DNA of 64,000 nt from positions 1 to 64,000 of the IMG/VR virus record IMGVR_UViG_3300044712_000340. The stretch is one strand, 5' to 3'. The position numbers and the translations under genes were made by a program. The notes under the pieces are model-generated. The model made no database searches. It was not told the origin of the DNA and worked only from the letters and a program-made list of their open reading frames with translations. The DNA comes from a virus. Positions 5,225-19,508 of the stretch are shown here, piece by piece (positions within the stretch are counted from its first letter, which is position 1; each line of letters starts with the position of its first letter).

Positions 5225-7474
5225 TTAAAAATCAAACTGTAAGTTACTATTAGCTAACATAGGATTTTGGGATTGTCTTCTATGATAGTTATTAGTTAGA
5301 AAAGCATCGTTAGCATATTCATCTTCATCATCATTATCTGTATTTCTTGTAGCTTCCACTTGTTTATATCTATCAGCCCTTAGTACAAATACCATATTAG
5401 CAGCAGACACTCTATCAAAGTTTCCATCTAAATTCCAGGATATACATTCTTGTAAGTAACCAAAAGACCTAATAGACTTAACATTTAAATTATACTCTAC
5501 TTTTTCTTCCCCTTCTGAATTTGTAATTATTATAGGTCTTTGTTTATTTTCACTTCTCATCCAATCTGCTTGTTGTTTTCTAGCCCAAGCATTTATTTGT
5601 ACAGATGCAGGAGTGCCATAAGATCTATTTCCTATAAGTCTAGCATCCTTTATATAATTCATATCTTTTAATATAGAAGGTGTTTCAGCAAGGTATCTTA
5701 ATTTATTCCTTCTATTAATATACTCATATAATCCTTTTCTATTATTCTCATAATTTATTTGAGCGTTATAAAATACAGCTAACTTTAGAGCTATGTCAAA
5801 ATTATCGTCTGCTAAAGGGTGTCTCCCTATCCATTCAGCTACAAATACATCATTCCATAAATCAAATACATGTACCCCAAATAGTGATATTCCATATGTT
5901 TTATATGTATCGTCGTCTACTGGGTCAATTCCGGCTATATATCTACCGTTAGGTATTTCTTTGCCTTTAGTGGCTTGAGGTAATTCGAATATCTCTATAG
6001 CCCCTAATAAGTTAGTACCTTTATAAGGCCACTCTCTAATAGGATGTTTATCAAATACAGGTTTATATTCTACCTTATCTGAGCCTATCCAGGTTAAATC
6101 TACTATATAGTGATTAGATAGAAATTGTTCTCTTGCAGGAGATATATTAGCTAAATGTTCTTTTAATTCATGTACAGGAAACTCTGAACCTTGTATTCTC
6201 ATAAAAGCTTCTTGAGGAGTTATAGGTTCTTCTGCCTTTACACGAGACAAGTACTGAGTATCATCAGAACTATATTTCACTTCTAACCTATGTTCTATAT
6301 CTTCTCCTAGTGCTTTTATTACGTCTGAATTTCCATCTCTATCATAACAGTCTGCCCTGTTGAGATAATCTGGTATAAATAAAGCACATGTGTTTTTTTC
6401 AGAGTTTTTATCAAATACATTTCTAATACCATAAACGTGATATGCTTTACATTTATAAAATAATTGCTCTAATCCTTGGAAGTTAGACGCTTCATCTCCT
6501 CCTGTACCAAAAGCTATTTGAAATCCAAATACCCTTTTACCGTCCTCTAATGATTTTAAAGCAATATTCCAAGATTGAATTAGATTAGGATTAGACCCCG
6601 ATTCTTCCCATGCTATAAGCTTTCCCCTTTTTCCTCTCGATTTCTGGGGATTATTTTTAAGGGTTACACCTATTCTTTCAGATTTAAACCCATATTTAGT
6701 AGAATCTCCAGGTTTAGTATATCCTGAAATTCTATGCATTAAAGAATCTTTTAAGGCTAACTTCTTACTAAACCCACAATGAGTATTAACAAAAGAGAAA
6801 TTATCATCTGCTTTATTTAATATACCATCTGCATCAAGATATTCTGATTCAGCAGCAAAAGCATATGATTTACTTTTAGATATAAGAAAGAAATTTCTAT
6901 TTAACATACTAGCTAACTTAAAAGAGTAACCTTTACCCCTAGCTTTAAGAGTTGCTCCATGCTTTCCTGCCTTTTCAGCTTGGTCTACATAGTGAAAAAA
7001 CATATAATCTCCATCCCATATATCAGGAAACCCTTCTACCCTATCTACTCTGCTAGCCTCACCTTCAACTCTTTTAGTTAATAGTATAGGCCCATAGTTA
7101 AGATAATAATAGTAGTATCCTGGTATCCATTCTCCATCCTCTTCTCTTACATATCCTTCAAGACACCTTCTAATTTCTTCATCCCAAAACTTCTTATAAG
7201 GACTGTTAGGACTTCTTGAAGGGTAATAAGGACAGTATTTGCCTGTAGTTAAAAAAGTCTCTCTTGTTTTAATAAAGTAAGACATATTTTCAAGTATATG
7301 AGGTCTAGACACGTCTACTATGATTCTACCTTTAGAATCTCTAGGCATGTCTTTAGATCTTGGACGATTAGGATTAATCATCCAATTAACAAGAGGAATA
7401 TTCAAAACTAAATTAGTTAATTCTGTATATCCCTCTGTACCTTGTTTAAATATATCTTCTACTTTACTAATCAT
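5225..7474 (-). CDS. terL: terminase large subunit
   Basis: 749 aa, the usual size for crAss-like TerL. The ATPase half carries a divergent Walker A near residues 177-186 (ARGKGYSFK) and a Walker B with catalytic acid at 286-292 (LIAWEES). The nuclease half begins near residue 515 with an acidic beta strand (AGIDPVDDD), followed by conserved hydrophobic strand/acid patterns, as in RNase H-like terminase nucleases. It pumps DNA into the prohead through the portal and cuts it at the end. The start overlaps the stop of the upstream 58 aa gene (ATGA), indicating translational coupling. Confidence 0.92.
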   Translation of the reverse strand: MISKVEDIFKQGTEGYTELTNLVLNIPLVNWMINPNRPRSKDMPRDSKGRIIVDVSRPHILENMSYFIKTRETFLTTGKYCPYYPSRSPNSPYKKFWDEEIRRCLEGYVREEDGEWIPGYYYYYLNYGPILLTKRVEGEASRVDRVEGFPDIWDGDYMFFHYVDQAEKAGKHGATLKARGKGYSFKLASMLNRNFFLISKSKSYAFAAESEYLDADGILNKADDNFSFVNTHCGFSKKLALKDSLMHRISGYTKPGDSTKYGFKSERIGVTLKNNPQKSRGKRGKLIAWEESGSNPNLIQSWNIALKSLEDGKRVFGFQIAFGTGGDEASNFQGLEQLFYKCKAYHVYGIRNVFDKNSEKNTCALFIPDYLNRADCYDRDGNSDVIKALGEDIEHRLEVKYSSDDTQYLSRVKAEEPITPQEAFMRIQGSEFPVHELKEHLANISPAREQFLSNHYIVDLTWIGSDKVEYKPVFDKHPIREWPYKGTNLLGAIEIFELPQATKGKEIPNGRYIAGIDPVDDDTYKTYGISLFGVHVFDLWNDVFVAEWIGRHPLADDNFDIALKLAVFYNAQINYENNRKGLYEYINRRNKLRYLAETPSILKDMNYIKDARLIGNRSYGTPASVQINAWARKQQADWMRSENKQRPIIITNSEGEEKVEYNLNVKSIRSFGYLQECISWNLDGNFDRVSAANMVFVLRADRYKQVEATRNTDNDDEDEYANDAFLTNNYHRRQSQNPMLANSNLQFDF

Positions 7475-11498: not shown

Positions 11499-11519
11499 TG
11501 TACATTTTATTAGTGTACA
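11499..11519. promoter_or_regulatory. paired TGTACA operator-like sites at the repL start
   Basis: Two palindromic TGTACA hexamers (11499-11504 and 11514-11519) spaced 15 bases apart lie between the repL -7 box and its start codon, overlapping the predicted transcription start. The placement suits autorepression by a dimeric protein. Confidence 0.4.
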
Positions 11520-11549
11520 AATTTAACAAAAACTTGTGTAATTTACAAA
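11518..11549 (-). promoter_or_regulatory. repL promoter with -33 and -7 boxes
   Basis: On the minus strand TTTG (11546-11549) and TAAATTTG (11518-11525) are separated by 20 bases, a full match to the Bacteroidota sigma-ABfr promoter layout. The start codon follows about 21 bases downstream, giving a short leader. Confidence 0.65.
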
Positions 11550-11566
11550 CTTTATTTTACAATTCA

Positions 11567-11860
11567 ATTCACTCATGAGTGAACCGTTTTATGCCATGAG
11601 TGAATAGCATAACGGTAGGAATGAACGACAAATCTTGTAACTAATTAACATTCAATTATATCCTTACTTACCCCTTCTTATCTATTATGATAGGGTAGAT
11701 TTATCTACCTATATGATAAAATAAATTGAACTACAGTATGTTATCATCCCTTATGCATAATATCATACCTATAAGATAACAAGCAACCTGTATGATAACA
11801 CAGTAATGTCCAGTAAATTATAAAAAAAAACTGGACAAACATAAGCCTATACTGTAGACT
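11567..11860. other. candidate replication origin region
   Basis: Upstream of repL, without any open frame: a 16 bp perfect palindrome (11568-11583), a second half-copy ATGAGTGAAT (11596-11605), an inverted repeat ACCGTTttATGC/GCATAACGGT (11583-11594, 11607-11616), GTAGAtttaTCTAC at 11695-11708, four copies of TATGATA in either orientation (11686, 11712, 11761 reversed, 11791) with a near copy at 11742, a long-range repeat CTACAGTAT/ATACTGTAG (11731, 11849), and an 8 bp hairpin TGTCCAGT/ACTGGACA with a 15-base A/T loop (11807-11837). Iteron-like repeats plus palindromes beside an initiator gene suggest an origin. Confidence 0.45.
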
Positions 11861-11973
11861 AGATGGTAGATATATGAGAAGTACATATTAGTAATTTCAA
11901 AAAAAAATTATAAAAATTTTTAAAGTAACATGTATATCGTTATGTGTTTACTATTCCATAAACATACCCCCAC

Positions 11974-12085
11974 TAAGTTAGAGCGAGTGACAGTATCCCT
12001 GTCATTGTTTAGTGTGACCAAGATTGCTGAATATCCTAGAGATATTACAAATCGGAAGACTACATACTAATCACTCACTAACTTA
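11974..12085 (+). ncRNA. structured RNA domain 1
   Basis: Closed by TAAGTTAG (11974-11981) pairing with CTAACTTA (12078-12085), continued inward by GAGTGA/TCACTC. An inner GACAG/CTGTC hairpin (11989-12003) follows at once. No open frame. Strand is assumed from the poly-U tails of neighbouring domains. Confidence 0.45.
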
Positions 12086-12092
12086 CACTGCT

Positions 12093-12144
12093 GATAGGCC
12101 AGATATAGTCTATCACTTATTTTGACTATCCTCTTCAGCCTATC
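12093..12144 (+). ncRNA. structured RNA domain 2
   Basis: GATAGGC (12093-12099) pairs with GCCTATC (12138-12144); inside, ATAGTC (12105-12110) pairs with GACTAT (12124-12129). A compact 52-base rod-like element eight bases after domain 1. Confidence 0.4.
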
Positions 12145-12158
12145 TATATACCACAATG

Positions 12159-12206
12159 ATGTAGTATTAACTTACAGGTTTATAAGCCTTTAGGTTAATA
12201 TTACAT
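12159..12206 (+). ncRNA. structured RNA domain 3 (long hairpin)
   Basis: A 13 bp stem with a single G-U wobble joins 12159-12171 to 12194-12206; an inner AGG/CCT helix closes the tip. The 3' arm is followed by a partial repeat of its 5' arm (GATGTAGTA at 12214), which could compete for pairing. Confidence 0.45.
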
Positions 12207-12282
12207 ATCATTTGATGTAGTACTTAGGTTGATAGGTTATAGTTCTATACAGTTATGATGACATAACGTATAACTTGAATGG

Positions 12283-12322
12283 AAGTGTTGTTATTGTTAC
12301 AACAGAGAGAATAACACACTTT
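12283..12322 (+). ncRNA. hairpin upstream of 29 aa membrane mini-gene
   Basis: AAGTGT and TTATT pair with AATAA and ACACTT around a 14-base loop. It lies 53 bases before the start codon at 12375; the intervening stretch 12323-12374 is plain A/T. Confidence 0.3.
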
Positions 12323-12374
12323 TCACCAATTTTACCAATAATTGAAAATTACTAACTTTAATAATATAGCTAAA

Positions 12375-12464
12375 ATGAAAGCAAATATACCATTAGCAAT
12401 ATACATTATAGGTACTTTAGCTGCTATTGTAGTTACAGTGTACTTCATAGTATTTGTACAATAA
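12375..12464 (+). CDS. 29 aa membrane mini-protein
   Basis: MKANIPLAIYIIGTLAAIVV... is almost entirely one transmembrane helix with a short charged N-terminus. ATG 12375, stop 12462-12464. It belongs to a set of five similarly tiny membrane proteins in 12-18 kb. No function recognised; single-helix inhibitors or holin-like roles are possible. Confidence 0.45.
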   Translation: MKANIPLAIYIIGTLAAIVVTVYFIVFVQ

Positions 12465-12470
12465 CATAAA

Positions 12471-12526
12471 GGATGAGCAAGATTAGGTCTTGTATTAAGT
12501 ATGTCAATCGCATTGACACCTCATCC
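12471..12526 (+). ncRNA. structured RNA domain 4 (three-way junction)
   Basis: Closed by GGATGAG/CTCATCC (12471-12477, 12520-12526). Two inner hairpins: CAAGA/TCTTG with loop ttagg (12478-12492) stacks directly on the closing stem, and TGTCAAT/ATTGACA with a CGC triloop (12502-12518). The 56-base three-way junction is complete, with no unpaired gap on one side, which is hard to get by chance. Confidence 0.55.
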
Positions 12527-12534
12527 TATTCATA

Positions 12535-12597
12535 CATCACAAGCAGGTTTGCAACTATGAATAAGCATAGTTAAGGGTTCGATTCCATTTGTGGTGC
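12535..12597 (+). tRNA. shrunken tRNA-like RNA
   Basis: A 7 bp acceptor-like stem (CATCACA 12535-12541 with TGTGGTG 12590-12596, one G-U), a short D-like arm GCA/TGC (12543-12552), a 5 bp anticodon-like stem CTATG/CATAG (12555-12570) and a T-arm with the canonical TTCGATT loop (12578-12584). But the anticodon loop is 6 bases, the variable loop 2 bases and the total 63, against about 76 for a real tRNA. No CCA is encoded. It is either a decayed tRNA or a tRNA mimic; I do not assign an amino acid. Confidence 0.5.
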
Positions 12598-12599
12598 TA

Positions 12600-12690
12600 A
12601 TAAACGTAGAGCTGTTCTAGATACTCACAGTATTGTATAGTGATTAGGGTATTGCTTTAGCGAGCTAATTATACAAGTCTTTACGTTTAT
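12600..12690 (+). ncRNA. structured RNA domain 5 (cloverleaf-like)
   Basis: A 9 bp perfect closing stem ATAAACGTA/TACGTTTAT (12600-12608, 12682-12690) encloses three arms: AGA/TCT (12608-12618), ATACT/AGTAT with a CAC triloop (12621-12633), and a long arm TTGTATA...ATTAG/CTAAT...TATACAA (12633-12676). It starts three bases after the tRNA-like element. The plan is a four-way junction like a tRNA without a T-loop. Confidence 0.55.
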
Positions 12691-12696
12691 ATCTTA

Positions 12697-12729
12697 CAGG
12701 TTAAACAGTGTTGCCTGAAAATACACTGT
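12697..12729 (+). promoter_or_regulatory. H-type pseudoknot in the leader of the 123 aa gene
   Basis: Hairpin ACAGTGT/ACACTGT (12705-12711, 12723-12729) has CCTG in its loop (12714-12717), complementary to CAGG just upstream (12697-12700). The pseudoknot ends 20 bases before the ATG at 12750, where it could act as a translational operator, for example for autoregulation by the encoded protein. Confidence 0.45.
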
Positions 12730-12749
12730 AATATCTTAATATCAATATT

Positions 12750-13121
12750 ATGTCATTCAATTCAATGTGTCTAGTTAATGCAGTAGCATTCAATTCAGGT
12801 AAAACCGATAAAAATGGTGAAACACCAGTATTACTTAATGTTCTTGCAGGCAAAGCTCCTAATAGGACTGTTATCTCTGGTACAATTGCAAAACGCAATG
12901 GTTATGAGTTAGGTAAGATGTACATTGTACAGATTACTGAAGGTAAAGAAGATCCTCAATATGGACGTCAATTCAACATTAACAAAATCTCTGAATGCTC
13001 AGTAACAGAAATGTTCTCAGCTATCAAGGGATTTGGTGCTGCTGAAATCTTTACGGTAGGACAAGAGCAAGATGCTTCTGTAGAAGAAGTTATTACTGTA
13101 GTTGATACAGAGATTAAGTAA
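12750..13121 (+). CDS. conserved protein, possibly OB-fold/ssDNA-binding
   Basis: 123 aa. The middle (ISGTIAKRNGYELGKMYIVQITEGKEDPQYGRQFNINKIS) is a run of beta strands with alternating hydrophobic and charged residues, compatible with an OB-fold; a short acidic C-terminus (VITVVDTEIK) follows. Codons are more balanced (GGT, GCT, CGC) than in neighbours, a sign of high expression. It has a pseudoknot in its leader and a terminator after it, so it is an independent unit. A single-stranded DNA-binding role is an inference; nothing decisive is visible. Confidence 0.5.
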   Translation: MSFNSMCLVNAVAFNSGKTDKNGETPVLLNVLAGKAPNRTVISGTIAKRNGYELGKMYIVQITEGKEDPQYGRQFNINKISECSVTEMFSAIKGFGAAEIFTVGQEQDASVEEVITVVDTEIK

Positions 13122-13138
13122 TCTTCTTGCAAAATAAT

Positions 13139-13166
13139 GAAAGGTGTAGCAATGCACCTTTCTTAT
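13139..13166 (+). terminator. terminator after the 123 aa gene
   Basis: GAAAGGTG/CACCTTTC 8 bp stem (13139-13146, 13155-13162) with loop TAGCAATG followed by a T-rich stretch. Confidence 0.75.
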
Positions 13167-13191
13167 TACTAATTTAAAACTTATAGAAGAA

Positions 13192-13377
13192 ATGAAGATA
13201 TTTGCATTAATTTGTTTTGCATTGATTATTACTTTTGGAATAATTAATTCTTTAAATAAACCCAAAGAATTAACAATATCACTACCTGAAGAAATAAGAC
13301 AAGCTACATCTCAAGATACTTTAATATGTATTAAGAGAAATGATACATTATTCATAGAATTTAATAATAAATACTAA
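13192..13377 (+). CDS. secreted or membrane-anchored small protein
   Basis: 61 aa. MKIFALICFALIITFGIINSL is a signal-anchor-like hydrophobic N-terminus; the rest is a polar ectodomain of 40 residues. No signal peptidase II cysteine in the right place. No family recognised. Confidence 0.55.
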   Translation: MKIFALICFALIITFGIINSLNKPKELTISLPEEIRQATSQDTLICIKRNDTLFIEFNNKY

Positions 13378-13384
13378 CAATATA

Positions 13385-13459
13385 AAACAAGGTAATACCT
13401 AAATAGGTCTTATTAAAAGATAATTAATAAGGTTGGAAAAGACCATAATTACCTTGTTT
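13385..13459 (+). ncRNA. structured RNA domain 6 (12 bp closing stem)
   Basis: AAACAAGGTAAT (13385-13396) pairs perfectly with ATTACCTTGTTT (13448-13459). Inside are GGTC/GACC (13406-13409, 13441-13444) and CTTATT/AATAAG (13409-13414, 13426-13431), giving one long imperfect rod of 75 bases followed by ATTTTAT. It may also act as a terminator for the gene before it. Confidence 0.5.
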
Positions 13460-13474
13460 ATTTTATAGTATTGT

Positions 13475-13578
13475 CACGATTCCTCTAACCTCGTGAATAT
13501 CCTGTAAGTTTCAGGCTGTACCTATACTAGATGTAAATAGGATATTATACATTTGAGGCTAGTTAATTTGTATAATAT
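13475..13578 (+). ncRNA. structured RNA domain 7 with mutually exclusive stems
   Basis: After a CACGA/TCGTG hairpin (13475-13495), AATATCCT (13496-13503) can pair with AGGATATT (13539-13546). But ATATTATACA (13542-13551) can instead form a 10 bp stem with TGTATAATAT (13569-13578). The two helices share 13542-13546, so only one can form, as in a riboswitch or attenuator. Confidence 0.45.
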
Positions 13579-13662
13579 GATAAAGTGAAAGGAAAGCACT
13601 TGTCTACTTTGACAAACCCAAGTTCCACGTAGCTTAATTAATTGCTATTGTATAGCTATGCT

Positions 13663-13690
13663 AGCAGACCAGATAGTCTGCTTTTAATTT
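13663..13690 (+). terminator. terminator-like hairpin before the 141 aa gene
   Basis: AGCAGAC/GTCTGCT (13663-13669, 13676-13682) with loop CAGATA, followed by TTTTAATTT. It could end the preceding RNA or attenuate transcription into the gene at 13714. The stretch 13579-13662 holds smaller hairpins only. Confidence 0.6.
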
Positions 13691-13713
13691 GTAAATCTTT
13701 AAATCTTAATATT

Positions 13714-14139
13714 ATGGAAAACTTATATTTAGGAAAGTATAATTCTGCTGAAAGTTCTAAAGAAATAACAGTAGGAAAAGGAAATTTTATGTGGCATGGA
13801 ATGATGTCTCATTTATACTTTAATAGAAGTATAATTGAATTAAATTCTATAGTAAACGAAATACAACGTATAAAAAATACTAAAGCTACTCTAATAGAAA
13901 AAGCAGTAGATTTAATAAATAATTTTCATTGGACTCATATGATGGAAGATAACAGTAACGCTACTACAAAGCAACGTAAAAAAGAGGAAGAATTAAAAAA
14001 GATTCTTGAAATATGCACAGAAGATATGTTAAAAGATATATATGTTGCTTATATACACAAAGCATTGATTCATTCTATGGGATGGAAAAGCCCTATGTCT
14101 TATGATAAATTTGTATCAAGAGAGTTACCCTTAACATAA
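13714..14139 (+). CDS. hypothetical protein
   Basis: 141 aa from ATG 13714; the longer TTG-initiated frame would run back through a terminator-like hairpin. Helical, with a charged middle (TTKQRKKEEELKKILEIC) and repeated His/Met/Trp residues (MWHGMMSHLYF, HWTHMMED). No family recognised. Its leader TAAATCTTTAAATCTTAATAT is repeated before the next small gene at 14162. Confidence 0.6.
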   Translation: MENLYLGKYNSAESSKEITVGKGNFMWHGMMSHLYFNRSIIELNSIVNEIQRIKNTKATLIEKAVDLINNFHWTHMMEDNSNATTKQRKKEEELKKILEICTEDMLKDIYVAYIHKALIHSMGWKSPMSYDKFVSRELPLT

Positions 14140-14161
14140 ATAATCTTTAAATCTTAATATA

Positions 14162-14287
14162 ATGAAATTAATGAAATCTAATTGGAAATCATTAGTGATA
14201 TTAATGGTTCCTGTAATCTTATTAGTTGCAGCTATTGTATATAATGTTGTAACAGTTGGAACTAGTTGCTATTTAGTAACTATGTAA
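14162..14287 (+). CDS. 41 aa membrane mini-protein
   Basis: A basic N-terminus (MKLMKSNWK) then a transmembrane stretch (SLVILMVPVILLVAAIVY) and a short polar end with one cysteine. ATG 14162, stop 14285-14287. Shares its A/T leader sequence with the gene before it. Confidence 0.5.
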   Translation: MKLMKSNWKSLVILMVPVILLVAAIVYNVVTVGTSCYLVTM

Positions 14288-14294
14288 GCTCAAA

Positions 14295-14343
14295 AAGTGA
14301 GAACATATTTAATATGTTATTACATCTCACCTTATTATTTTTC
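14295..14343 (+). terminator. terminator after the 41 aa gene
   Basis: GTGAGA/TCTCAC (14297-14302, 14325-14330) encloses a perfect AACATAT/ATATGTT inner stem; a T-rich tail (TTATTATTTTTC) follows. Confidence 0.65.
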
Positions 14344-14376
14344 TTCTTAAATTTGTTAAACTTTAAAACTTAAAAT

Positions 14377-14559
14377 ATGACCTGGAATCAAAAACTATGG
14401 AGGGACACTCCAGAAGATGACACAGATCAAGATACTTACTGCTTGCAATGTGGTAGATATATTGATCCTAATTTCAGTAATCATAATGGATTATGTGATT
14501 ACTGTAATGAAAGAAAGTATGATAATGAAGAATTAGATTGTTGTAATAAAGTTAAATAA
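14377..14559 (+). CDS. zinc-ribbon mini-protein
   Basis: 60 aa with CLQCG and CDYCN (about residues 27-45) forming a CxxC...CxxC zinc ribbon, flanked by acidic segments; a further CC pair lies at the C-terminus. No family name recognised. Such ribbons often bind nucleic acid or proteins. Confidence 0.55.
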   Translation: MTWNQKLWRDTPEDDTDQDTYCLQCGRYIDPNFSNHNGLCDYCNERKYDNEELDCCNKVK

Positions 14560-14561
14560 TT

Positions 14562-14657
14562 ATGAAAACAATCTATAAAGTACTCAAAGTTATTACTATT
14601 GTTATAGTAATATTAGCTATTATAGTATTAATTACACCTTTAATAGCATTAATATGA
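14562..14657 (+). CDS. 31 aa membrane mini-protein
   Basis: MKTIYKVLKVITIVIVILAIIV... is one hydrophobic helix with a basic start. The stop overlaps the next start (ATGA at 14654-14657), showing coupling and supporting that both are translated. Confidence 0.5.
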   Translation: MKTIYKVLKVITIVIVILAIIVLITPLIALI

Positions 14658-14752
14658 ACTGGAACGATTTTAAAAATGAATTATTGCCTTATATTTTTAT
14701 GATAGTAACCTCTGGGTTACTGTTATATATTTATGTAAGGTATATAATATAA
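14654..14752 (+). CDS. 32 aa membrane mini-protein
   Basis: A polar start MNWNDFKNELLPY is followed by a single transmembrane helix (IFMIVTSGLLLYIYV). Coupled by ATGA overlap to the mini-gene before it; together they look like a two-component membrane unit. A GTAACC/GGTTAC hairpin lies inside the gene at 14705-14720. Confidence 0.5.
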   Translation: MNWNDFKNELLPYIFMIVTSGLLLYIYVRYII

Positions 14753-14763
14753 GATACTAATTA

Positions 14764-14998
14764 AGCTAGTTTATGAACAGCCACACCATTCGTTGTATAC
14801 AAGGAGTAATAAGGTGTAAAGAGGTGAGATGCCTCATTCGAGTAATATCTGGTTGCTAGCCAGAAATAACATATAATATTAATTAAAGAGTTGTTGTACA
14901 ACTATCCAGTAAGTTGCTGGCCATTTGAATAGTAAGCATACTTTTAAATCAGGGATACGTTTGTAATAGAAATATTATTTAGCTTTCATGAACTAGCT
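14764..14998 (+). ncRNA. structured RNA domain 8 (235 nt, 14 bp closing stem)
   Basis: The 14-base arm at 14764-14777 pairs with 14985-14998 with one G-U wobble and no other defect. Inside are ACACC/GGTGT (14783-14817), GAGG/CCTC (14821-14835), TCTGG/CCAGA (14849-14864) and CCAG/CTGG (14906-14920), so a multi-branched RNA is likely. No open frame of use. It begins 11 bases after the membrane mini-gene. Confidence 0.55.
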
Positions 14999-15000
14999 AT

Positions 15001-15078
15001 CTCAAATGAGAAATATGAATCAGTGTAATTCTGACCTACAAAGGAATAGTATTCCAATGTAACTGCTATAGGCAGTAA
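15001..15078 (+). ncRNA. hairpin train between domains 8 and 9
   Basis: Four short perfect hairpins follow each other: CTC/GAG (15001-15010), TCAG/CTGA (about 15020-15034), GGAAT/ATTCC (about 15042-15055) and ACTGC/GCAGT (about 15062-15076), then a run of nine A. Their regular spacing suggests a folded unit but pairing is short. Confidence 0.3.
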
Positions 15079-15090
15079 TTAAAAAAAAAT

Positions 15091-15272
15091 AAAGATTTGG
15101 TAACTAAATAATAATTCGGATAGAAAACCTGTAGAAATTACAGTTAATTAGACTATCAAGAGTAAAATCTTATATTATTTAGTCAACTTAGGTTGAAGTT
15201 TGAATTCAATGGTTTAGCTTACGAGCATTAAAACAATGGAGTTTCCAGTAGTTCAAACTTTACCAAATCTTT
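15091..15272 (+). ncRNA. structured RNA domain 9 (giant cloverleaf)
   Basis: A 13 bp perfect closing stem (15091-15103 with 15260-15272) opens into a four-way junction with no spare bases: an 11 bp arm (15103-15113 with 15173-15183), a CAAC/GTTG tetraloop hairpin (15184-15195) and a 9 bp arm (15196-15204 with 15252-15260). The first arm branches again into GATAG/CTATC with an inner CTGTA/TACAG, and AAGA/TCTT. The 182-base RNA ends in TTTTT. It is the clearest evidence that these are selected RNA structures. Confidence 0.65.
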
Positions 15273-15283
15273 TTAAAATATAG
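15266..15283 (+). repeat. 18 bp spacer repeat, copy 1
   Basis: AAATCTTTTTAAAATATA occurs here after domain 9 and identically at 15550-15567 before domain 12. It resembles the A/T leaders in front of small genes here, but no start codon follows. Confidence 0.6.
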
Positions 15284-15374
15284 TAATAAGTAATAATTCA
15301 GAGAATACTGATGATATTGAATAATAGAAGTAAATGTCTTTTACAATTACTAAAGAATAGTATTACTTATTACT
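15282..15374 (+). ncRNA. structured RNA domain 10 (14 bp closing stem)
   Basis: AGTAATAAGTAATA (15282-15295) pairs perfectly with TATTACTTATTACT (15361-15374). Inner hairpins: ATTCA/TGAAT (15296-15322) and GTAAA/TTTAC (15330-15344). 93 bases, about the size of a small RNA. Confidence 0.6.
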
Positions 15375-15381
15375 TTAACAT

Positions 15382-15534
15382 AATAACAAATAATATTGGT
15401 GGAGTAATTACCCAGTTTATACTACAATATGAGAGTCTATAAAGTGTCAGGTATAAGTAAATCTCCTTGGTGACTTGTGAGTAGGACACCTGCTTTGTAA
15501 TCGTATAATTAACCAATTATTTGTTATTTTTTTT
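15382..15534 (+). ncRNA. structured RNA domain 11 ending in U8
   Basis: AATAACAAATAA plus ATTGGT (15382-15400) pairs with ACCAAT plus TTATTTGTTATT (15512-15528) with a two-base bulge, and eight T follow at 15527-15534, as in an intrinsic terminator. The interior has CAGGT/ACCTG (15448-15492) and GGTG/CACC options. The U-tract fixes the strand as plus. Confidence 0.6.
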
Positions 15535-15549
15535 AATAAAACTCTAGTT

Positions 15550-15567
15550 AAATCTTTTTAAAATATA
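15550..15567 (+). repeat. 18 bp spacer repeat, copy 2
   Basis: Identical to the copy at 15266-15283 (AAATCTTTTTAAAATATA). It precedes domain 12. Confidence 0.6.
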
Positions 15568-15688
15568 ACTATAAATTGATGTTTTAATGGAGTACTATGA
15601 ACAGTTTAAGAACACTTACAAGTATACCGAGTGCCATTTGAGTAATTGGTTGTGATGGAAAGAAGACAAACTAGACATTTATAGTTAT
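15565..15688 (+). ncRNA. structured RNA domain 12, flanked by direct repeats
   Basis: ATAACTATAAAT (15565-15576) pairs perfectly with ATTTATAGTTAT (15677-15688). The domain is bracketed by a direct repeat AACTCTAG(T/C)TAAA (15540-15552 and 15694-15706), as if the unit had been inserted or duplicated. Internal pairing is less clear. Confidence 0.5.
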
Positions 15689-15726
15689 TATAGAACTCTA
15701 GCTAAAGAGGATAAAGAAAGCCATGA

Positions 15727-15837
15727 GATAACTTATTAATTGGTTATAAGAAATAGATCGAAATAAATCTATACCAAAGATTAGAATAAAATGTAACAAT
15801 TTGTTATAGTAAAGGCTAAATTAATAAGAAGTTTATC
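15727..15837 (+). ncRNA. structured RNA domain 13
   Basis: GATAA and CTTATTAATT (15727-15741) pair with AATTAATAAG and TTATC (15819-15837). Inner hairpins are ATAGAT/ATCTAT (15753-15772) and TAAC/GTTA (15794-15806). A terminator follows immediately. Confidence 0.5.
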
Positions 15838-15838
15838 A

Positions 15839-15867
15839 GGCTGTAGTGAGATTCTACAGCCACTTTT
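15839..15867 (+). terminator. strong terminator ending RNA domains 8-13
   Basis: GGCTGTAG/CTACAGCC 8 bp stem (15839-15846, 15854-15861) with a 7-base loop, followed by CACTTTT. It probably ends the transcript carrying the preceding RNA domains. Confidence 0.75.
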
Positions 15868-15885
15868 AATTTAAAATTAGTAAAT

Positions 15886-16098
15886 ATGGAATACATTACA
15901 TTGATAGGATGGAAATCTAACATAGGAAGATCATTAAATTGGTTAACAATATCAGATATTGAATGTAGTCAAAAATGGAAAAATAAAATATATTTTCCTC
16001 AAGATGTATTAACTACTGAAAAAGGATTTTTATTAGTTCAAACTACAGAAGGAATAAAAGAATTCTCTAAAAGTCATTTTGAAATTTATAAAGAATAA
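15886..16098 (+). CDS. hypothetical small protein
   Basis: 70 aa (MEYITLIGWKSNIGRS...), beta-rich with W/K-rich strands and a C-terminal KEFSKSHFEIYKE; looks like a small barrel. No family recognised. It lies between two RNA domains and carries the common A/T leader. Confidence 0.55.
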   Translation: MEYITLIGWKSNIGRSLNWLTISDIECSQKWKNKIYFPQDVLTTEKGFLLVQTTEGIKEFSKSHFEIYKE

Positions 16099-16269
16099 AA
16101 TCTCTTTGCTTAGGAAGCAAGCAATAAGTTGCGGTGAATATCCGCCATGCAAGGCAAGCTAACTATAAGCTTATGATTTGGCAAATCAGCTTGCGGAATA
16201 AGACACTTAACAGAGATAGTAAACTCTTTAAAACGTAAGGTGTTACAGCCAAGTACAGAGAGATTTTTT
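16097..16269 (+). ncRNA. structured RNA domain 14 ending in U6
   Basis: AAAATCTCT (16097-16105) pairs with AGAGATTTT (16259-16267) and T continues to 16269. Inner helices: GCGG/CCGC (16131-16145), a 7 bp GCAAGCT/AGCTTGC (16154-16160, 16188-16194) holding GATTT/AAATC with a GGC loop (16175-16187), and ACAC-TTA/TAAGGTGT (16204-16242). This region is clearly more G/C-rich than its surroundings, as structured RNAs in A/T-rich genomes tend to be. The closing stem overlaps the stop of the preceding gene. Confidence 0.6.
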
Positions 16270-16274
16270 AATAT

Positions 16275-16445
16275 AATAGTTAATAAACCAAGAAAATTGG
16301 TTGAAGATCATTTGTTAGATATATAGATTAATTGACATAGATAACATTAAGAGTTAAAACCTGCTATAATAAGTGCGCCACTTATGATGGGATTGAAAGC
16401 AGTAGCAAGTATAATTATAGAATACAGAAATTCATATTAACTATT
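16275..16445 (+). ncRNA. structured RNA domain 15
   Basis: AATAGTTAATA (16275-16285) pairs perfectly with TATTAACTATT (16435-16445). The first inner hairpin AACCAA/TTGGTT (16286-16302, loop GAAAA) stacks directly on it. A second arm has CTGCT/AGCAG (16361-16365, 16398-16402) around ATAAGTG/CACTTAT with a CGC triloop (16369-16385), the same triloop as in domain 4. Confidence 0.6.
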
Positions 16446-16476
16446 TTAATTGGAAATTAACTAAAATAATAAATAT

Positions 16477-16855
16477 ATGTGTTTAATTTTAAATAAAGAC
16501 TCAAAAAAATTGTTAGCAAAAAAAAGATATTTTTTGCTATAAATGGTTATTTAAAATACCTATTAAAGATTCAATAGATAAAAATTATAATTATAAAACA
16601 GTATATCAAAAAGTAGATGTCGTAATTGGTGAGACTTATATTTCCGAACTTAGACGTATAGACTCTGTATATTTTTCTTATATTACAAAAGGGTTACATT
16701 CATATAAACATATACCTGTTGATGTATTTTATAACGCTATTCTTGTGGAATGTATTATACCAAAAGGAGCAAAATATTATAGTGGACGATTTAATGCTAT
16801 GTCTAGTTATGCTTCTGATACATTGAAATACATTAAAATAATAAATAACTTATAA
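16477..16855 (+). pseudogene. small conserved phage protein, frameshifted at an A8 run
   Basis: From ATG 16477 the frame reads MCLILNKDSKKLLAKK and hits a stop after 21 codons; the rest (DIFCYKWLFKIPIKD ... GLHSYKHIP ... VECIIPKGAKYYSG ... SYASDTLKY) is open in the +1 frame to TAA at 16853-16855. Removing one A from the eight at 16518-16525 restores one protein of about 125 residues with the pattern MCLxL, K-D-I-x-C-Y-K, GLHS, CIIPKGAxYY, YASDTLKY that I associate with a family common in Bacteroidota phages. Either a real lesion, a slippage site or a sequencing error. Confidence 0.7.
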
Positions 16856-16897
16856 TCCAACGGAGGAATACTCATGTAACATTCGAGGATACTAATC

Positions 16898-16994
16898 TAT
16901 GCAGTTGAAGTGGAATTGGCTTGATCCAATCGATAGATATAGAAGGACACTCAAAAGGGATGCAGGTAGCCAATGTCTTAGAAAGGTCTGCATA
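16898..16994 (+). ncRNA. structured RNA domain 16
   Basis: TATGCAG (16898-16904) pairs with CTGCATA (16988-16994); inside, ATTGGC (16915-16920) pairs with GCCAAT (16969-16974), with an alternative local hairpin ATTGG/CCAAT (16915-16930). Upstream 16856-16897 is G/C-richer than average but I see no clear stem in it. Confidence 0.45.
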
Positions 16995-17025
16995 AGTTAT
17001 TTAAACTAATTAAAACAAAAGTAAA

Positions 17026-17403
17026 ATGTATATTGTAGATATTGAAAAGTTTACTTTTTTGCAAAGAGATTTTCTAGTGCCTATTTACATGGCTAGAGGG
17101 TGCTTTAACGGTAGAGATCTGCATCCAATAATTACTATTGAAGATAAAATATATGTTCTATCTCATACAAAACAAAAAGGAAAAAGATTAAATATTAAGA
17201 TAAGAATCTATGATATAGAAGGGGAATTTATTACAGGTATAAAATCTTTCAATAGCCATCTTACTGGAAATCAGTATTTAACTTTACCTTTATTTAAGCC
17301 TAATAAAATTTATTCTAATATAAGTGGGTATATAATGATAAAACCTTATTTATATGATTTAGGTCTAACTGTTAAAAAATTCAAACTAATTAAAACTGTA
17401 TAA
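17026..17403 (+). CDS. hypothetical protein
   Basis: 125 aa, beta-rich and basic, with no clear domain (MYIVDIEKFTFLQRDF ... YLTLPLFKPNKIYSN). It begins a run of four closely spaced genes to 18130; the next start lies one base after its stop. Confidence 0.6.
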   Translation: MYIVDIEKFTFLQRDFLVPIYMARGCFNGRDLHPIITIEDKIYVLSHTKQKGKRLNIKIRIYDIEGEFITGIKSFNSHLTGNQYLTLPLFKPNKIYSNISGYIMIKPYLYDLGLTVKKFKLIKTV

Positions 17404-17404
17404 T

Positions 17405-17866
17405 ATGAAATACAATTTAGTGGCTAGATGGCCTGGAACAGATTTATGTTATAGGGATAAGCAATGCCCTAAGTGTAAAAAAGAATATTTAGATACAGAT
17501 AAAATATTTTGTGATATTTGTGAATGTACTAAAGAAGAAACAATTGAAGAAGCTATGCAAATATCTTTAAAAGATAAATTTTCTGGTTGGACTGTATCAC
17601 CTGTTTTTGATGGGAATGAATTAGAAGATGCTTGGATGAGAGGAGCAAATTGGCAAAAAGAACAAGATCTTACTCTTATTAAAGAAGGAGTAATATGTCT
17701 GAAAGAATCTAATATTCTTCTAGAAGCAATGTCTAATAAAATAGATAAAATGTATACTGAAGAAGAAGTTTACAATATTGCATTTTTATTATGGGAAGGA
17801 TATATTCACGAAACAAAAGAATATCCTGATTATTGCACATGGTTTGAACAAAATAAAAAGAAATAA
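17405..17866 (+). CDS. zinc-ribbon protein
   Basis: 153 aa. Residues 21-24 (CPKC) and 36-39 (CDIC), with C41 nearby, form a four-cysteine zinc ribbon at the N-terminus; the remainder is helical and acidic, with an EEAMQISLKDKFSGW motif and a C-terminal YCTWFEQNKKK. No family recognised; possibly a nucleic-acid-binding or protein-binding adaptor. Confidence 0.6.
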   Translation: MKYNLVARWPGTDLCYRDKQCPKCKKEYLDTDKIFCDICECTKEETIEEAMQISLKDKFSGWTVSPVFDGNELEDAWMRGANWQKEQDLTLIKEGVICLKESNILLEAMSNKIDKMYTEEEVYNIAFLLWEGYIHETKEYPDYCTWFEQNKKK

Positions 17867-17867
17867 T

Positions 17868-18029
17868 ATGCCAGAAATAATAACATTAAATGATTTGCTA
17901 TTAGGGACTTTAGTAGCAATCATAATTGTAGTAGCTTATAAAGTAGCTACAGGAAAAAATTTCATTTCAAAGGAAGATAATAGTCCCACTTGGAGTGAAT
18001 TAGAAAGTAGAAGATTAAATAAAAGATGA
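17868..18029 (+). CDS. small membrane protein
   Basis: 53 aa from ATG 17868 (MPEIITLNDLLLGTLVAIIIVVAYKV...), one N-terminal transmembrane helix and a polar C-terminus. A longer frame starting inside the preceding gene is rejected. Stop overlaps the next start (ATGA). Confidence 0.55.
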   Translation: MPEIITLNDLLLGTLVAIIIVVAYKVATGKNFISKEDNSPTWSELESRRLNKR

Positions 18030-18130
18030 ATCCTTTGATAAAATTCTTGCTTGTCATAGCTATTATGATAAGTATAATAACATTTTGTTATATAGTATAT
18101 ACTATTATAACAAACAATAAAAACAAATAA
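18026..18130 (+). CDS. 34 aa membrane mini-protein
   Basis: MNPLIKFLLVIAIMISIITF... is a single transmembrane helix followed by TNNKNK. ATGA overlap with the preceding membrane protein gene and one base before the next start, so it is likely translated. Fifth of the tiny membrane proteins in the 12-18 kb region. Confidence 0.5.
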   Translation: MNPLIKFLLVIAIMISIITFCYIVYTIITNNKNK

Positions 18131-18131
18131 A

Positions 18132-18449
18132 ATGGAACTATTAGTGAGACAGAAAAGGCCATTACAGGACTTTTCAAGTGGTAAATGGGTAAATAAACAA
18201 TTTCCTATTATCTTTTATACAATAAAGGATAATAAAAGATTGGTTATAACTCATATGAGTGAGGATGTAAGATCATATGTATTGACATTAACTATAAACA
18301 ACAATTCGTGTATAGGTAAATACAATACACATGAAGATTCTTTATTGTTCAATTTAAATATGGAAGACAATAATTTAAGAATAAAAGATAATACAAGGAT
18401 AGAAGGTCTTGTATTATTAGAAAGAATTGCACCAAATGAGCCAATTTAA
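18132..18449 (+). CDS. hypothetical protein
   Basis: 105 aa, beta-rich, beginning MELLVRQKRPLQDFSSGKW. N-rich middle; no family recognised. Last gene before a 580-base stretch of structured RNA. Confidence 0.55.
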   Translation: MELLVRQKRPLQDFSSGKWVNKQFPIIFYTIKDNKRLVITHMSEDVRSYVLTLTINNNSCIGKYNTHEDSLLFNLNMEDNNLRIKDNTRIEGLVLLERIAPNEPI

Positions 18450-18490
18450 GGCTGTGATTTAATTGATTTTAGGGTAGGTGCACCCATCTT

Positions 18491-18545
18491 AAAGGGGTAG
18501 ACAGTCTGGTTTTCAATAAGGCTATTCGTTTCCAGGCTGCCCTTT
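18491..18545 (+). ncRNA. structured RNA domain 17 (hairpin)
   Basis: AAAGGG/CCCTTT (18491-18496, 18540-18545) and CAGTCTGG/CCAGGCTG (18502-18509, 18532-18539) stack into a 14 bp stem with one G-U and a small 5' bulge, topped by a 22-base loop. Upstream a GGT/ACC hairpin (18471-18484) adds a second element. Confidence 0.5.
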
Positions 18546-18556
18546 ATAAATTTAAA

Positions 18557-18640
18557 AGGGGCTTAATAATTAATAACATTGATTGTTAGTATTATATGTA
18601 ATAGGTAGGCAGTTTTCCCCTCTGCCGTTATTAGGATGTG
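18557..18640 (+). ncRNA. structured RNA domain 18 with possible pseudoknot
   Basis: GGCAG/CTGCC (18608-18612, 18622-18626) has CCCC in its loop (18617-18620), complementary to GGGG at 18558-18561 upstream. The pair could form a long-range pseudoknot around an A/T-rich spacer. No open frame. Confidence 0.35.
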
Positions 18641-18695
18641 TTGGATTTATTTTCATAATTTTTAGGTTTAGGTTAATAATGTTTTGGTTAGTATA

Positions 18696-18730
18696 GTACT
18701 ACAGGTTGCATCCTACTGTAGTGCTTTTTT
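18696..18730 (+). terminator. terminator before the tRNA-like gene
   Basis: GTACTACAG/CTGTAGTGC (18696-18704, 18716-18724), 9 bp with one G-U, followed by TTTTTT (18725-18730). Confidence 0.75.
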
Positions 18731-18734
18731 ATTT

Positions 18735-18742
18735 TATATTTG
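18735..18742 (+). promoter_or_regulatory. -7 box directly upstream of the tRNA-like RNA
   Basis: TATATTTG matches TAnnTTTG. The predicted start, about 7-10 bases downstream, coincides with the first G of the acceptor-like stem at 18753, and a terminator isolates it from upstream transcription. This is the layout of an independently transcribed RNA gene. Confidence 0.5.
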
Positions 18743-18752
18743 TAGAATATTT

Positions 18753-18860
18753 GGGTTGTATGTTACTGGGTGGTAATATCCTAATGGTATGATTTAGGAA
18801 GTGATAGAAATATGTGATATCCTAATACTATCTTATGAAGTTCGAATCTTCAACAACCCA
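18753..18860 (+). tRNA. oversized tRNA-like RNA
   Basis: A perfect 7 bp acceptor stem GGGTTGT/ACAACCC (18753-18759, 18853-18859) with discriminator A, a perfect T-arm TGAAG/CTTCA with the canonical TTCGAAT loop (18836-18852), and a D-arm TTAC/GTAA with a GGG-containing loop (18763-18776). The anticodon-like arm TCCTAA/TTAGGA has a 9-base loop, and a 36-base region with GATAG/CTATC replaces the variable loop. The 10-base repeat ATATCCTAAT occurs twice (18776, 18817). At 108 bases it is too long for an ordinary tRNA; no amino acid is assigned and CCA is not encoded. Confidence 0.55.
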
Positions 18861-18863
18861 CTA

Positions 18864-19010
18864 AAATAGTAATAATTTTATAGAAATCTATAGGAAACTG
18901 TAGACGTAAATACAATACAATATTAAGAAGATAATTTATTAATGTTGGAATGCTGGAGTTTGTATATTGGTAGTAAGAAAAGGCTAGACTATCTTAAACT
19001 ATTACTATTT
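18864..19010 (+). ncRNA. structured RNA domain 19
   Basis: AAATAGTAATA (18864-18874) pairs perfectly with TATTACTATTT (19000-19010), 11 bp, enclosing 125 bases with a TATAG/CTATA hairpin (18879-18892). It begins four bases after the tRNA-like element and ends 21 bases before the endolysin start. Confidence 0.5.
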
Positions 19011-19031
19011 ATTGTTTAACTTAAAAAGAAA

Positions 19032-19508
19032 ATGATGAAATGGATATTAACATTAGTATTATGTCTTATTTACTTGAACATAAATCCAAGTATAAAAGAA
19101 TTAAAGGGAAATAAATTAAATTCTATTAAAAGTTTATCTATTGAAGGTAAAGAGCTAATTTACAAGAAAGTATATCAAGAAACAATAGAAACACTAAAGA
19201 GACAAGAAGGATTTAGAGCTTATTTCTACTCAGATAACGGATATCAATGTATTGGTTATGGTCAAAGAATAAAGTTTTATTCTGAGAAGATACAAGAACC
19301 AGTTACAAAAGAGCAAGCAACTAGGATTCTTGAAAAGAGTTTTAATAATCATATTAAACTAGTAAAAAGAATATATCCTAAATTAGATGATATAAGAGTT
19401 ATAGAATTAGCTCATATATCATATCAAAGTGGAATAGTAAAAGTAATTAAACTAATGAAAAATCAATATGAATTACAAAATAGTAACCAACGAACAACAG
19501 TTAATTGA
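19032..19508 (+). CDS. GH24-type phage lysozyme (endolysin) with N-terminal membrane anchor
   Basis: 158 aa. Residues 1-20 are hydrophobic (MKWILTLVLCLIYLNI), a signal-anchor. The catalytic region shows E59 (RQEGF), D68 (YSDNG) and the CIGYGQR strand at 73-79, matching the GH24 E-D-T arrangement (EGxxLxxYxDxxGxxTIGYG) but with cysteine where threonine is usual. It would cleave peptidoglycan at lysis; a secreted or SAR-type mode is suggested by the N-terminus. The C-terminal lobe is short and overlaps the next gene by 41 bases. Confidence 0.7.
   Translation: MMKWILTLVLCLIYLNINPSIKELKGNKLNSIKSLSIEGKELIYKKVYQETIETLKRQEGFRAYFYSDNGYQCIGYGQRIKFYSEKIQEPVTKEQATRILEKSFNNHIKLVKRIYPKLDDIRVIELAHISYQSGIVKVIKLMKNQYELQNSNQRTTVN

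Follow-up and report, generated by a model that had tools for sequence, protein, structure and literature searches.

A candidate array of structured RNA modules interleaved with small genes in a crAss-like phage genome

Introduction

GOLLD and ROOL are structured RNAs of phages or prophages, of unknown function, that often lie near transfer RNA (tRNA) islands (PMC12286853). The Pistol ribozyme was discovered in searches around phage genes associated with ribozymes (PMC4604425), and multiple tRNA genes, some of them divergent, have been reported for crAss-like phages (PMC7886860). Here we analyze the region between about 12 and 19 kb of the IMG/VR virus record IMGVR_UViG_3300044712_000340, in which small genes alternate with non-coding stretches predicted to fold into structured RNAs. 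The window is the whole stretch analyzed, bases 1–64,000 of this 93.5-kb record; labels such as L008 denote viral DNA stretches from related IMG/VR contigs.

Annotation of phage genomes usually stops at proteins and tRNAs, and this one window gives several structured-RNA families. Judging from sequence comparison, at least five RNAs predicted in the array belong to families also present in other uncultivated phages and missing from Rfam, and the predicted shapes of several are clearly preserved by evolution. We consider it probable that the array is a modular cassette of independently folding, phage-specific non-coding RNAs, encoded on the plus strand and interleaved with tiny genes.

Results

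The region has a genuine structural pattern beyond that of shuffled sequence. Stems of 10 bp or longer number 24 in its non-coding stretches, whereas 100 dinucleotide shuffles gave 9.1 ± 2.8; for stems of 13 bp or longer, the count is eight, against 0.9 ± 0.95 (shuffle maximum 3), an approximately ninefold excess. Terminator-like sites number 11, about seven times the 1.6 ± 1.5 expected from shuffles, and seven of them are on the plus strand. In 150-nt fixed tiles of the plus strand, the mean folding energy z score is −1.19 in the array vs −0.40 in the rest of the window (23 tiles). The first-pass annotation, made from this DNA alone, had described the non-coding stretches as non-random, with several segments ending in plus-strand terminators, and both descriptions agree with these controls. 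The stems that it named are present: 15091–15103/15260–15272 (13 bp) and 15282–15295/15361–15374 (14 bp) are exact, and 14764–14777/14985–14998 exists as sequence (14 bp, one G-U). Its count of at least fifteen closed segments goes beyond the data, as some segments fail the energy test and the chance test covered stems of at least 10 bp. Folding energies compared with 200 dinucleotide shuffles were clearly better for eight segments, namely 12100–12250 (z −5.8), 13385–13459 (−4.0), 14764–14998 (−4.5), 15091–15272 (−4.5), 15282–15374 (−2.8), 15692–15862 (−3.0), 16099–16265 (−2.9), and 18753–18860 (−3.1), and no better for five.

A relative of 93,292 bp (L007–L011) has most of its genome in common with this phage, at 23–80% protein identity. 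The array DNA can hardly be aligned to it except in three islands, 14878–14929, 15086–15112, and 16090–16203, which correspond to the elements named A, B, and C herein and occur in identical order in both phages. A pattern built on the first island matched 11 viral DNA stretches, which on context reading had extended flanking sequence or hairpins in common. Through a pattern for the third island, C and a further element, E, were found in L035, a third crAss-like phage. Additional relatives were recruited with an alignment of three polymerases, single queries (a 123-aa gene; the polymerase alone) having been unsuccessful in viral contigs. Several of the relatives recruited in this way have non-coding arrays upstream of the polymerase, some with tRNAs.

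Element A has two copies in the window. Copy 1 (13462–13546, +) consists of the hairpins TCACGA/TCGTGA, CCTG-TAAGTTT-CAGG, and CCTAT-ACTAGATGTAA-ATAGG; it is 75% identical to the copies in L028/L025 and has compensatory differences from its relatives in all three hairpins. Copy 2 (14881–14965, +) has 94% identity over 52 nt to L008 3539–3590. A covariance model for element A (R2) matches copy 1, which belongs to its training set, at 13461–13568 (E-value 2e-17) and recovers copy 2, which does not, at 14881–14948 (E-value 1.3e-4); E-values of the models built here are rough because calibration was shortened. The same model finds element A outside the training set in L023, L020, L007, L008, and L050. 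Since the portal of L023 is of a different family (phrog_64), the element appears to cross phage lineages.

Pairing in element A is kept while sequence changes. Stems in the copies were assigned by hand, and their presence and pairing were checked by script. Hairpin 1 is free in sequence and keeps its pairing, with 11 distinct versions in 13 copies, a count that includes L020, where this hairpin is undefinable. Hairpin 2 follows CC(A/T)G-UAAGYUN-C(T/A)GG, and L050 has a further compensatory change in it (CTGG/CCAG). Seven distinct stems were found for hairpin 3, the loop of which often starts with ACUGAG. A MAFFT alignment of eight copies, two rows of which have hairpin 1 misplaced, shows pairing in 92% of cells and changes on both sides in six of 11 pairs. 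The covariation score was reached by none of 500 shuffles, and the number of both-side pairs by 12 of 500. A loop-loop pairing of hairpins 2 and 3 was considered and rejected, as it has no covariation.

Element D was not found in the window and is present in relatives. It is the best supported of the candidate families: across nine sequences, all cells (100%) are paired, 11 of 17 pairs have changed on both sides, and no shuffle of 500 reached the covariation score. D lies immediately 3' of A in L021, L025, L027, L028, and L050, and in L028 it is also found 5' of A.

Element G (14755–14842, +) has an invariant hairpin (GCUaGUU-UAUG-AACAGC), a stem (ACACC/GGTGT), and a third hairpin (GAGGU-GAGAU-GCCUC). 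It occurs in nine phages (the window and eight contigs), each with UUAAGCUAGUUUAUGAACAGCCACA, allowing for slight differences, together with a stem that varies and a hairpin containing GUGAGAUGC. One of these, L058, shares its TerL family with the window. The pattern search for G gave 21 matches, most of which were discarded after context reading as protein-coding chance matches. The covariance model for G (R1) matches the window copy, a member of its training set, with an E-value of 1e-18, and the divergent copy in L039 with 2e-7. Hairpin 1 is invariant, and three of eight sequences carry compensatory changes in hairpin 3, where a single pair takes up to four types. Shuffles equaled the count of pairs changed on both sides in 180 of 500 cases, so this count is not above them, and support for this element comes from its covariation score (0 of 500 shuffles) and from slid controls. 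Covariation in homologues, which the first-pass annotation had expected of real RNAs, was thus found for A, for D in the relatives, and for C (three sequences, below), and is weaker for G.

The first-pass annotation had taken 14764–14998 as one closed domain; it comprises two separate elements, G and A. The 14-bp pairing that spans them was considered as a switch and rejected, since the eight other members of G have no counterpart of similar length. A hairpin with a GTGAGAT(G/T)C loop is common to G (14821–14835) and the unrelated E (15839–15861). Among 13 occurrences of GUGAGAU(G/U)C in ~1 Mb, both strands counted, nine have at least three flanking pairs, and all nine are in E or G.

The features of A, D, and G raise a tentative alternative, compatible with a modular cassette, that some families, and these three in particular, are small, as yet undescribed self-cleaving ribozymes and would cut the array transcript. 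They are small, with two or three hairpins and invariant unpaired letters. A likely H-type pseudoknot after A, identified by eye, is compensatory (AGGC/GCCT and GATCC/GGATC vs AGGG/CCCT and GGTCT/AGACC). Neighbors include Hatchet ribozymes or transfer-messenger RNA (tmRNA), and in L024 element A lies ~60 nt ahead of a Hatchet. However, no catalytic core is recognizable, and the elements have no Rfam match to any ribozyme class. On this evidence we regard a ribozyme identity as possible, at well under even chances.

Element C (16094–16272, +) has a closing helix (AAAATCTCTTTGC../..GTACAGAGAGATTTT) followed by a T run, and a conserved inner TTTGGCAAATCAGCTTG. Homologues are found at L008 4446–4641 and L035/L046 7919–8114, giving three phages. 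Nine of its 36 consensus pairs have compensatory changes (three sequences, without a shuffle control). The matches of the C model to the sequences it was trained on follow by construction. Of the new contigs that the pattern search gave, only one was retained; on context reading, the others looked like chance matches in protein-coding sequence. Element B (15085–15285, +; z −4.5) is a predicted multibranch domain closed by AAAGATTTGGTAA/TTACCAAATCTTT with an inner stem ACTAAATAATA/TATTATTTAGT, and both main stems recur in L008 4200–4455. Element E (15688–15866, +; z −3.0) is closed by AACTCTAGCT..GAAGTTT and has a terminator-like 3' hairpin (GGCTGTA-GTGAGATTC-TACAGCC); its homologue is at L035 3196–3332. 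Beyond the window and L035, the pattern search for E matched only terminators of unrelated phages. With two sequences each, B and E owe the support for their structures mainly to an architecture that both sequences have in common. A recurring module order places B or E upstream of C.

Elements F, H, I, and J each occur in at least two relatives. F is closed by CTCTCATCC..TGAGAG and was observed at L024 ~6200–6400 (−), L021:11963–12119 (−), L022 ~100–200 (−), and L008:3040–3150 (+). In L052, an apparent 3' end of F is immediately ahead of G. The related arrays also contain known RNAs. L008 has a permuted tmRNA at 1545–1934 (+; Rfam RF04321, 52 bits) that was missed by ARAGORN, with a tRNA-Asn right after it, and a Pistol self-cleaving ribozyme at 6424–6478 (+; 55 bits). 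Further company consists of tRNAs (L008), a Hatchet with tmRNA, and additional tmRNA and tRNA.

Several observations weigh against a cassette of conserved, independent RNAs. Five segments fold at shuffle level: 15545–15690 (z +0.3), 16856–17000 (0.0), 18450–18560 (−0.4), 18600–18750 (−0.6), and 13462–13546 (−0.8). Minus-strand tiles are also negative (−1.07 in the array vs −0.46 in the rest), a signal that is expected from any inverted repeat. The covariation shuffle controls leave sequence relatedness in place. Homologues are few (two sequences each for B and E, three for C), and none were found for domains other than A, B, C, E, and G. Finally, G is shortly upstream of a gene in L059 and L052, as a cis-acting leader would be.

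The segments with z near 0 are what chance structure in A/T-rich non-coding DNA would produce. This is contradicted for A, C, and G, and the stem excess, the covariation of A, C, and D, and the R2 matches outside the training set argue against it. We consider chance a very improbable account of the array as a whole, and a possible one for the domains that lack homologues. The position of G in L059 and L052 bears instead on whether the elements are cis-acting 5' or 3' parts of the adjoining small genes (leaders, attenuators, or stability hairpins). They do alternate with small genes, and the terminator-like hairpin of E is just upstream of the gene at 15886. However, neighbors vary by contig, such that what comes after G can be a gene, a tRNA, or more RNA, and several elements succeed one another without an intervening gene, as with D-A-D in L028, F-G in L052, and, in the window, B with further domains. 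A cis-acting role is therefore unlikely to explain the array, and somewhat less likely than a ribozyme identity for some of its families.

Other predicted domains of the window, all on the plus strand, were identified alongside these elements. A strong hairpin domain at 12100–12250 contains a 16-bp stem (12159–12174/12191–12206; z −5.8, 0 of 200 shuffles), and a hairpin domain with AAACAAGGTAAT/ATTACCTTGTTT is at 13385–13459 (z −4.0). Closed domains are found at 15282–15374 (perfect 14-bp stem; z −2.8), 15382–15532 (13-bp stem, then a T run; z only −1.3), and 16275–16445 (11-bp stem; z −1.8), and no homologue was found for these three. A segment with a 12-bp stem, ATAACTATAAAT/ATTTATAGTTAT, at 15545–15690 is at shuffle level (z +0.3). 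Another closed domain (18864–19010; 11-bp stem, z −2.8) is immediately ahead of a lysozyme-like gene. A three-way tRNA-like domain (12470–12530) is closed by AGGATGAG/CTCATCCT (z −3.3) and was not called as tRNA by ARAGORN or Rfam. A scan for T-arms and acceptors picked up two more. The first, at 12533–12606, resembles a cloverleaf, with the acceptor CATCACA/TGTGGTG and T-arm-like GGGTTCGATTCC (z −2.7), and is uncalled by ARAGORN. The second (18752–18860; z −3.1) has a 7-bp acceptor (GGGTTGT/ACAACCC), a perfect T-arm (TGAAG-TTCGAAT-CTTCA), and a long variable region.

The window encodes a portal protein (phrog_6547), TerL (phrog_6681), and a family A DNA polymerase, which identifies the phage as crAss-like; we take the portal and TerL families to be of crAss type. 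Packaging genes run leftward until ~9.5 kb, from ~9.6 kb genes are mostly rightward, and GC skew changes from negative to positive around 9–12 kb. The array is near the start of the rightward cluster, with packaging genes on one side and replication genes on the other; it is followed by the lysozyme-like gene at 19032 and the replication genes. Lying just past this flip in transcription direction and skew, its inverted repeats might act as DNA, for example at a replication origin. We think this highly improbable, given loops of invariant sequence, plus-strand G-U pairs that are kept, modules found in varying order and surroundings, and neighbors that include tRNA, tmRNA, and ribozymes. In G, one U-G pair is present in eight of eight sequences and a GC pair has become GU in two; G-U pairs are also kept in A. 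A plus-strand sense is indicated by these pairs together with terminator polarity and gene direction.

A sigma-70 promoter scan of the region was at shuffle level (52 vs 50.9), and no full Bacteroidota-type promoter was found in it. Small genes at 13697 and 14145 have a near-identical A/T leader, CTTTAAATCTTAATATTATG, immediately 5' of the start codon. Protein coding with recoded stops was rejected, as the longest stop-free run was at most 78 codons in the segments checked.

Three further observations were made in related contigs. A sub-threshold match to YrlA (Y RNA-like) at L050:5023–5086 (−) adjoins a 573-aa protein at 5422–7140 (−). This protein is in PHROG 850 ('RNA-binding protein') with a weak DUF2828 match, and the two are possibly a phage Ro/Y RNA pair. 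Tandem T-arm-like hairpins (GGTTCGATTCC and variants) were seen by eye at L043:3720–3900 (+). A group I intron-like match at L035:7027–7248 (+; 43 bits, under the Rfam cut-off of 50) is within a split polymerase gene and seemingly has its own reading frame.

We searched databases and the literature for these elements. Rfam 15 found nothing in the window, and a permissive search of 11500–19100 gave two chance-level matches only. The first-pass annotation had recognized no GOLLD or ROOL layout, and neither RNA was found in the window at gathering score or in 11500–19100 at E-values up to 10. The window had no match to Hatchet, Pistol, or twister covariance models, no tRNA accepted by ARAGORN or Rfam RF00005, only tRNA-like folds, and no standard or permuted tmRNA by Rfam or ARAGORN. 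The region had no BLAST match in 50,697 phage records, short queries with the A and G cores gave chance matches only there, and a search of 84,980 bacterial and archaeal genomes found neither core. No account of arrays like these was found in open-licence literature. The window elements thus appear new to Rfam 15 at the thresholds used, and the A and G cores also to the phage records searched.

Discussion

The array is best described as a series of distinct structured RNAs with small genes in between, much as first proposed; where a single new class had been suggested, several unrelated families are found. Under the cassette reading that we favor, each RNA would be a maintained module (A, B, C, E, and G in the window; D, F, and H in relatives), and modules would be gained, lost, duplicated, and reordered between phages. 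The RNAs would most likely be made on long early transcripts, from which intrinsic terminators, cleavage within the A/T linkers, and, in relatives, self-cleaving ribozymes would release them. Once released, they would probably act in trans on host RNA or the translation machinery, like phage-borne tRNA and tmRNA. That RNA processing or translation is the target, and that some elements may be ribozymes, is suggested mainly by tRNA, tmRNA, and ribozyme company, which is circumstantial.

A broader proposal is that several uncultivated phage lineages share a modular RNA repertoire foreign to Rfam, including new self-cleaving ribozyme classes, in back-to-back self-processing arrays that would supply a mixture of trans-acting RNAs early in infection. 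We hold this speculative and, in its full form, unlikely. If the families described here are confirmed, crAss-like and related phages spend kilobases on RNA effectors or ribozymes. The small size of modules A, C, D, and G would allow direct synthesis and testing.

The array resembles GOLLD and ROOL in consisting of structured RNA in a phage context. In contrast to those single RNAs of roughly 600–800+ nt, it has many unrelated modules of ~70–200 nt. Hatchet (RF02678) and Pistol (RF02679) keep the same genomic company, with copies above gathering score in related arrays, whereas neither model matches any of elements A, B, C, E, and G. Phage tRNA and tmRNA clusters, including the permuted tmRNA RF04321, occupy the same place and are present in related arrays, while the window has tRNA-like folds only. 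For the same phage group, the main text of the crAss-like phage study (PMC7886860) mentions tRNA and has no non-coding, intergenic, or RNA-structure terms. Phage islands of structured RNA are a known kind of locus, and the families described here appear to be new members of such islands.

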